Assembly: GCA_023701125.1 (NCBI GenBank)
Contig: JAMPXO010000010.1
Span: 1 to 64,000 of the forward strand
Direction: 5' to 3'
Origin: Vicinamibacteria bacterium
GTDB lineage: Bacteria > Acidobacteriota > Vicinamibacteria > Fen-336
Length of the DNA: 64,000 nucleotides
Numbering within the stretch: position 1 is the first letter of the stretch; each line of letters starts with the position of its first letter. Both the position numbers and the translations under genes were made by a program. Below are positions 56,785 to 58,398 of this stretch, one piece after another. The notes under the pieces are model-generated. The model was given only the letters and a program-made list of their open reading frames with translations. It searched no databases and was not told where the DNA came from.

Positions 56785-58398
56785 TTACGCCGGGAAGAAG
56801 AGGCGCGACTCGAGGCCGCCCGTGGGCAGCGGCGCGAAGCGCACGAAGCCTCCCAGCTCGCGCACCAGGCGGCACGCGTCCCCGTAGGTGCCGGGCGAGG
56901 TGCCGGCCACGATCTGCTGCTGTTCTTCCGCGGGAACGACCGGACCGTGGGCGGCCGCGAACATCAGGAACTCGCGCCGCACCTCGGAGCCGTCGCGGCC
57001 GCGCAGCAGCACCGGCTTGCGCTCGGCGCGGGCGACGAACGTGGTTCCTGCGGAGCGGTCGCCGGCGGCCTGCAGCAGCAGGCCGATCGCGCGCGCGGCG
57101 TTCTGGGCCGGGCAGCGCGGCAGGCCCAGGCCGGGCGCCACGCGGTTGTCGACCAGCACGCCCTTCGACTGCAGGGCGGCCTGCACGCCGGCGATGCCGT
57201 CGCGCACGATCGCCTCGAAGCCCGCGGGCGCGGCCGCCGGCGCGGCCGCCGCAGCGGCGCGCGGCGCAGCAGCGCCAGCCCGCGACTGGGTGCCGATGCC
57301 GGAGCGGGTGATCGCCGAGGTCTGGCCCGGGGCGACGCCGCCAAGCTTCTGGATCAGGCCCCGCAGGCGGTGCGCTTCCTGGTGGATGGCCATGATCGCG
57401 GCTTGCCGTTTCTCGCGGGCGTCTTCCTTGTAGACCTGCAGCAACTCGGAGTGGGAGAGGATCGTGCCGAGGCCCTGGTTCATGTCGCGGACCACGTCCG
57501 ACAGCGTTTCCGCAAGGTCGACGTTCGACTTGATCGCCCGCTGCAGCAACTCCTCGGAGACCAGGCCGGTCTCGGGCGAGGCCTGCAGGGTCGACACCTG
57601 CGAGGTCGAGGCCTGCTGGACGAGCGTGATCTTGGGTGGCGTCTGGACCTGGGGAGCCGCGGACGCGGCGGCCTGGTCGTCGCCACCGGGCACCGAGACG
57701 CTGCTGCCCGCGGGCGGGATGCCCGCGGCGGCGGCTCCGCGCGCCAGCACCGCGAAGGCCTCCTCGACCAGCGCCGGGACCGAGGCCGGGTCGAGGCCCT
57801 TCTCCTTCAGGTTGTACTTGACCGCGATCGCGCCGAGCATCTCCTTCACGATCGCCGTGAAGGTCTCCATCACGCCCTGGCCCGTGGCCGCGACCGCACC
57901 GACGGCGACGCGCCCCCACGGGTTGAGGGCCTTGGTCATCTCGGCTTCGCTCTGCAGGTCGGGCAGGTCGCGCTTGTTGTACTGGAGCACGAGCGGCACC
58001 TTCTCGGGAACCAGCCGGTTCGCGAGCAGGTTGACCTTCATGTTCTCGAACGCGGTCTGGTTGTCCTTCGCCATCGACTTGCGCGAGTCGGCGACGAACA
58101 CCACCGCGTCGGCCCCCGCCAGCACCACGCGACGGGTCGCGTTGTACTGGACCTGGCCGGGAACCGTGTAGAGCTGGACCTTGAAGTCGTAGCCGGACAC
58201 GGTGCCGAGGCTGAACGGGAGCAGGTCGAAGAAAAGCGTGCGGTCCTGGCCCGTGTTGAGCGAGATCAGGCTGTTGGCCGCGGCCGGGTCGGTCAGCCGA
58301 TGGATCTGCTCCAGGTTGGTGGTCTTGCCGGACTGGGCCGGCCCGTAATAGACCACCTTGGCCTTGATGGTCCGTTCGCTGAAATTGAACTGGACCAT
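56785..58398 (-). CDS. MglA-type GTPase fused to a degenerate histidine-kinase module
   Basis: A 537-aa cytoplasmic protein. Residues about 1-195 are an MglA-like small GTPase: P-loop G-P-A-Q-S-G-K-T (19-26), V-P-G-Q in the switch II region (79-82, as in MglA, replacing the D-x-x-G of Ras) and N-K-R-D (141-144). A linker follows (about 225-280), then a helical hairpin (about 285-352) similar to the HisKA dimerisation domain, and a C-terminal ATPase-like fold (about 393-537). In the H-box position the phospho-histidine is replaced (V-V-R-D-M-N-Q-G-L-G, with R304), and the G-boxes are poor, so kinase activity is unlikely. No MglB/Roadblock gene is adjacent. Confidence 0.75.
   Translation of the reverse strand: MVQFNFSERTIKAKVVYYGPAQSGKTTNLEQIHRLTDPAAANSLISLNTGQDRTLFFDLLPFSLGTVSGYDFKVQLYTVPGQVQYNATRRVVLAGADAVVFVADSRKSMAKDNQTAFENMKVNLLANRLVPEKVPLVLQYNKRDLPDLQSEAEMTKALNPWGRVAVGAVAATGQGVMETFTAIVKEMLGAIAVKYNLKEKGLDPASVPALVEEAFAVLARGAAAAGIPPAGSSVSVPGGDDQAAASAAPQVQTPPKITLVQQASTSQVSTLQASPETGLVSEELLQRAIKSNVDLAETLSDVVRDMNQGLGTILSHSELLQVYKEDAREKRQAAIMAIHQEAHRLRGLIQKLGGVAPGQTSAITRSGIGTQSRAGAAAPRAAAAAAPAAAPAGFEAIVRDGIAGVQAALQSKGVLVDNRVAPGLGLPRCPAQNAARAIGLLLQAAGDRSAGTTFVARAERKPVLLRGRDGSEVRREFLMFAAAHGPVVPAEEQQQIVAGTSPGTYGDACRLVRELGGFVRFAPLPTGGLESRLFFPA

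Follow-up and report, generated by a model that had tools for sequence, protein, structure and literature searches.

To our knowledge, MglA-type GTPases have been linked to two-component signaling only via separate proteins, namely Frz/RomR in Myxococcus and the conservons in Actinomycetota. The conservons (CvnA kinase, CvnB, CvnC and CvnD GTPase), like the locus described here, bring together a GTPase of the MglA type and a protein resembling a histidine kinase (PMC13343842, PMC4316618); they consist, however, of four separate proteins, among them a kinase in the membrane and a homolog of MglB, whereas our protein is a single polypeptide without a Roadblock domain. Group 1 MglA proteins (Myxococcus xanthus, Thermus thermophilus) have in common with it the GTPase fold and the catalytic set R53, T54, D58, Thr78, Q82 and NKRD, but our protein is multi-domain, has Ala or Pro rather than Gly at position 21, and has no adjacent mglB. 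The other half resembles DivL of Caulobacter, a DHp-CA fold with a substituted phospho-acceptor, no kinase activity and a switch role; it is an example of a kinase core that, though dead, works as a switch reading a receiver (PMC4211667). DivL, which is among the top ten Foldseek matches of our C-terminal half, contains PAS domains and lacks a GTPase. It retains weak binding of an ATP analogue (PMC4211667), but our protein lacks every ATP box. Histidine pseudokinases and MglA GTPases are already known, as are partnerships between GTPases and kinases such as the conservons; what is new here is an Acidobacteriota-wide MglA-connector helix-GAF-histidine kinase architecture, with our protein at its decayed end. 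In the searchable literature we found no description of a covalent MglA-kinase fusion family, the only matches being papers on conservons and Myxococcus. The main survey of prokaryotic Ras GTPases (Wuichet and Sogaard-Andersen 2014) overlooked this class of fusions because proteins longer than 240 residues were left out, a single-domain MglA limit that our 537-residue protein exceeds.

The gene lies in a 64,000-nucleotide stretch of DNA from a Vicinamibacteria bacterium (the window, meaning the whole stretch analyzed) and reads from 58398 to 56785 on the minus strand, which the initial annotation had not specified, as an intact frame with an ATG start (Table 1). The long open reading frames that cover it on the plus strand are typical high-GC shadows; the minus-strand frame is singled out because of its homologs and its codon evolution, and the order-wide alignment of orthologs spans residues 1-537. 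The linker, with pLDDT below 50 at residues 232-286 in the AlphaFold2 model and a dN/dS above that of the domains, occupies the place of the linker that precedes the connector helix and GAF domain in the relatives described below. No GAF match was found in the window protein, and the connector helix enters the DHp-like hairpin directly, continuing into the H-box helix. The CA-like domain carries an extended beta-hairpin with an invariant ExKPVL motif (459-464).

Table 1. Features of the MglA-type GTPase/degenerate histidine-kinase fusion gene in the window
Feature	Nucleotide positions	Strand	Remarks
Whole gene, MglA-type GTPase/degenerate histidine-kinase fusion	56785..58398	minus	537 aa, stop codon included
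GTPase domain, residues 1-195	57814..58398	minus	PDB MglA match, E 1e-49; Foldseek 48% identity to M. xanthus MglA 6hjo
GTPase-domain motifs			P-loop G19-PAQSGKTT27 with Ala21; R53/T54/D58; TVPGQ 78-82; NKRD 141-144
Linker, residues 196-283	57550..57813	minus	Low complexity; predicted disorder from about 232
Connector helix, residues 281-303 (SEELLQRAIKSNVDLAETLSDVV)	57490..57558	minus	Invariant columns among orthologs
DHp-like helical hairpin, residues 283-353	57340..57552	minus	Sub-threshold Pfam HisKA; hhalign; two AlphaFold2 helices
R304 codon	57487-57489	minus	Phospho-acceptor histidine column
CA (HATPase)-like domain, residues 393-537	56788..57222	minus	hhalign; AlphaFold2 pLDDT; box table

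The initial annotation had assigned residues 1-195 to an MglA GTPase, and this is borne out by the P-loop, TVPGQ and NKRD motifs and by a match of residues 4-188 to M. xanthus MglA (PDB 6hjh, 6h17, 5ymx; E about 1e-49). The MglA catalytic positions, with roles assigned from PMC6785124 and PMC3000849, are all in register (Lys25/Thr26, Arg53, Thr54, Asp58, Thr78 in TVPGQ, Gln82 and NKRD 141-144). A Foldseek search of the N-terminal half against the PDB also returns MglA, and in the GTPase tree the domain diverges from the canonical MglA branch. Position 21, which corresponds to Ras Gly12, is Ala in 14 of 16 orthologs and Pro in the other two, and never Gly; Ala at this position is also found in many other MglA relatives. 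The G21V substitution in T. thermophilus MglA is reported to reduce kcat 7-fold (PMC3000849), and Ras G12P is described as catalytically competent and non-transforming (PMC6662853). Extrapolating from the Val and Ras data, which amounts to a guess, Ala or Pro at position 21 should make hydrolysis slower and the GTPase less responsive to a GAP. The window GTPase retains R53, Q82 and the MglB-contacting beta2 residues F56/F57, and the equivalents of the M. xanthus MglA lysines K181 and K185, which contact the MglB C-terminal helix (PMC6785124), are not conserved. The absence of MglB recorded in the initial annotation applies to the neighborhood, since no mglB/Roadblock gene adjoins the window gene, but not to the genome, which encodes one canonical pair elsewhere (G000:C30:1401-2510, a single-domain mglA beside an MglB Roadblock gene).

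The C-terminal half had been described as having the layout of a histidine-kinase core. In a single-sequence Pfam search of the window protein, HisKA is matched at residues 296-352 (E 0.0036, 17.8 bits, under the 26.9 cut-off) and HATPase_c is not matched at all, so that of the HMM check that had been proposed only the first part returned a hit, and a sub-threshold one; we consider single-sequence Pfam/NCBIfam results too weak to decide on this half. HisKA is matched in 8 of the 16 orthologs (best 6.6e-5). A family profile of the 16 orthologs was compared with 30 DHp-CA cores from kinases of the same genome. Residues 278-537 match these cores by hhalign at 98.6% probability (E 1.2e-15, 216 columns) with DHp followed by CA, and the two parts also match separately (DHp alone 94.4%, E 9e-8; CA alone 97.2%, E 2.8e-11; all E-values are for single pairwise comparisons). 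One reversed and 14 column-shuffled control profiles reached a probability of at most 3.5%. A search of PDB sequences with the family profile (hmmsearch) gave marginal kinase matches only, with a best E of 0.03. Structure prediction, which had also been suggested as a check, shows a hairpin of helices followed by a CA-like sandwich modeled with confidence: in AlphaFold2 models built on a shallow alignment of 16 sequences, the pLDDT of the CA-like domain is mostly 82-93 in the full model, where the GTPase half has moderate confidence only, and 89-96 in a model of the C-terminal half by itself. Foldseek searches of this half against the PDB return LvrB, DivL (4q20), RetS, HK853 and ChpT with probability 1.00; TM is about 0.4 and rmsd is large owing to a different hinge geometry. 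The proposed kinase-core layout is thus supported by profile comparison, predicted structure and comparative genomics. The nearest match outside the family in the same genome, a DHp-receiver-cyclase protein (C188), was set aside as showing generic kinase-type similarity; by eye, this 596-residue protein (L131:1903-3690) contains a DHp domain with an intact H-box and no CA domain, then a receiver and a class III cyclase-like domain.

The chemistry of the kinase has been lost. R304 aligns exactly with the phospho-accepting histidine in the profile alignment, as the initial annotation had placed it, and no intact H-box occurs elsewhere in the window protein. Neither of the two results named in the initial annotation as refuting it, a lack of HisKA/HATPase similarity or an H-box preserved at another position, was obtained. 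Across 16 orthologs, the phospho-acceptor column holds Arg in 10, Gln in 4, and Glu and His in one each. The H-box Pro and several DHp consensus positions are also missing. The ATP-binding boxes, previously described as weak, are indeed degenerate, but this understated their loss: the N-box Asn, the G1 Asp and the G2 (GxGxG) glycines are missing in all 16 orthologs, and the ATP lid is deleted in the window family. The single ortholog with His at the acceptor column (L005, G010:C47; VHDMN) lacks the ATP-binding boxes; its His is either due to chance or an acceptor that is phosphorylated in trans.

Conservation of the fold contrasts with this loss. The CA-like domain is under strong purifying selection within the genus: NG86 comparisons of the window gene with its two genus mates give a CA dN/dS of 0.022, against 0.064-0.067 in the GTPase, 0.155-0.177 in DHp and 0.24-0.26 in the first linker. 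The low CA value holds within genera; at family distance, where sites are partly saturated, the CA ratio is about 0.65 and the domain is much more variable. Because divergence is so much larger at family distance, the CA fold is retained but tuned by lineage. Residues that are invariant across the order include E282, L284, L285, I289, S291, N292, V293, A296 and E297 of the connector helix, together with the ExKPVL hairpin and a GGFxRFA motif near the C-terminus.

Full-length orthologs are present in 17/17 searched genomes of the order (Acidobacteriota, Vicinamibacteria), a count in which a few orthologs were matched in pieces and one is frameshifted, and a whole-genome search of 176 further genomes from the class did not find the fusion in any. 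The named public genomes that carry it are Acidobacteriota/Vicinamibacteria metagenome-assembled genomes (MAGs), and every sequence analyzed here comes from MAGs. In one of them (L016/L046; G011:C689, QHVP01000638.1), the ortholog extends over two frames near a contig end, reflecting either a frameshift or an assembly error. The window gene stands alone, divergent from rpmB and convergent with a VKOR-thioredoxin gene, and RidA and RelA/SpoT lie further upstream. The rpmB, RidA and RelA/SpoT neighborhood is kept in part of the order only and these genes look housekeeping, and we discarded it as a functional clue. The window genome also encodes other MglA paralogs with unrelated C-terminal parts. 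Two of them (L127, G000:C55; L128, G000:C148) and their relatives (L020-L029) are long proteins with Pro/Glu-rich linkers and a short conserved beta-rich tail; another (L129:1866-3524, G000:C55:61827 region) is a divergent MglA-like GTPase (GPATAGKTT, LSVPGQ) whose long C-terminal region has no Pfam match.

Relatives with a recognizable kinase occur in sister classes. Pfam assigns the domain order GTPase-GAF-HisKA-HATPase_c to two such proteins, L049 from Thermoanaerobaculia and L048 from Polarisedimenticola; HATPase_c clearly exceeds the cut-off in both, and HisKA exceeds it in L048. A search of the phylum, from which 40 long open reading frames were picked by length and similarity (this is not a census), yielded a kinase core in 34 of the 40. 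Across Acidobacteriota the architecture is MglA, connector helix, GAF and histidine kinase, graded from intact to decayed. In L174 the kinase is fully intact (SHELRTPL / NAIK / DSGIG / GIGLG). In others the acceptor His is lost and the ATP boxes are kept, with Ala (L049, L164), Asp or Asn (L169, L170), Gln (L172, L176), or Thr or Ser (L189, L193, L198) in its place, and the cores of L178-L182, L186 and L188 are further eroded. Among L163-L200 and L049, losses of the His with retention of the ATP boxes apparently occurred several times independently. These fusions (L048, L049, L163-L200) have the same order of GTPase, connector helix, DHp and CA as the window protein, and most have Ala21; they differ from it in carrying GAF and, in many cases, intact H, N, G1 and G2 boxes. 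The window family is the most decayed, GAF-less end of the series. In the genome of Candidatus Polarisedimenticola svalbardensis (JACXWD010000003.1; L048:4002-9491), the intact relative belongs to a cluster of signaling genes, in which genes for a GAF-SpoIIE phosphatase and a single receiver are followed by the fusion and then by a PAS-HisKA protein.

The connector helix links the window family to these relatives. A short helix of the form ELLxxAVxxNvxLAExL separates the GTPase from the GAF domain in almost all of these proteins, and also in GAF-only members; its individual scores are weak, and it is the constant position that carries the argument. The simplest reading is that the GAF domain and its coiled coil were deleted between the connector helix and DHp in the window family. 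By hhalign, fused intact kinases are a better match to the window profile (99.0%, E 2.7e-18) than free kinases are (98.6%, 1.2e-15). In a tree of the GTPase domain only, the 52 kinase-fused rows lie on one side of a branch (support 75/84; 81% of bootstraps), and with all rows the starred branches require kinase state to have changed separately three times or more. When the longest branches are dropped, three GAF-only proteins without a kinase fall within the fused group, which is what loss of the kinase from some members would produce. That all kinase fusions go back to one clean origin is supported with all rows but not with the long branches removed, and is not secure. Because of these GAF-only proteins, common descent of the kinase-fused proteins is put forward as likely rather than proven.

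What, then, does the kinase-fold half do? That it has no kinship with kinases, its resemblance arising by chance in a helical, low-complexity region, would fit the sub-threshold HisKA match of the single sequence, but the full-length profile match with DHp and CA in order, the negative controls and a confident CA fold with kinase structure matches reduce this to a negligible prospect. It is also highly improbable that this half is a functionless relic in decay: the loss of every catalytic box and the fast evolution of the linkers would fit such decay, but it is rejected by the CA dN/dS of 0.02 within the genus, which is below that of the GTPase, and the ExKPVL and GGFxRFA positions, invariant across the order, and the retention of the fusion in all 17 genomes argue against it as well. 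The initial annotation suggested that the pseudokinase part may take the regulator role in place of MglB; put as a built-in GAP or GEF, in which the kinase-fold half promotes GTP hydrolysis or nucleotide exchange by the GTPase it is joined to, this idea draws on the lack of an adjacent mglB, the retention of R53, Q82 and F56/F57, and the non-conservation of the lysines for the MglB C-terminal helix. We consider it unlikely, since canonical MglB is encoded elsewhere beside its own MglA, the GTPase-kinase relatives with an intact kinase also lack obvious GAP features, and Ala/Pro21 would tend to blunt GAP action.

The main rival concerns the direction of the signal. As in DivL, the flow may be reversed: a phosphorylated response regulator, or another kinase, would dock on the dead DHp-CA core, which would relay the signal to the GTPase as the output of a two-component pathway. 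In its favor are the structural similarity of the C-terminal half to DivL by Foldseek, the repurposing of the DivL core to read DivK~P (PMC4211667), the use of DHp helices as the usual response-regulator docking site, and the single-domain receiver gene directly upstream of the intact Polarisedimenticola relative. No receiver gene, however, adjoins the window gene, where the neighbors are RidA, RelA/SpoT, rpmB and VKOR-thioredoxin, and the upstream neighbors are conserved in part of the order only; this reading has a minor, though real, share of the probability.

We favor, with a probability of roughly 60%, a dimeric GTPase switch in which a non-catalytic kinase fold, derived from an MglA-GAF-kinase ancestry, acts as a scaffold or docking and regulatory module. 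The ancestor would have had the order MglA GTPase, connector helix, GAF, DHp and CA, in which the kinase can be intact; the window order would then have lost GAF and all kinase chemistry, with the fold kept under strong selection. DHp domains generally dimerise, and the DHp-like hairpin, from its fold, may likewise dimerise the protein and so pair two GTPase domains; the missing H-box Pro and DHp consensus positions count against this. In real kinases the CA domain moves against DHp; here the CA-like domain may be a docking or conformational module that works by shape only, with the conserved hairpin as its likely contact site. This module would report the GTP or GDP state to a partner, or would impose the state of a partner on the GTPase. 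Since Gly21 is replaced by Ala or Pro while R53 and Q82 are kept, the GTPase is predicted to bind GTP and to hydrolyse it at a low rate that depends little, if at all, on MglB.

More generally, and more tentatively, MglA nucleotide state may gate the fused histidine kinase in Acidobacteriota, with the chemistry repeatedly lost in several lineages, including that of the window, and information then passed by shape alone, possibly from a response regulator to the GTPase; we place this somewhat below even odds. The fusion illustrates that one molecule can combine a GTP switch with a two-component kinase. Since the fusion is covalent, is conserved across Acidobacteriota and has stages that range from active to dead kinase, it allows a direct test of whether the GTP state controls the kinase core and of what use a kinase fold still has after its chemistry is lost.
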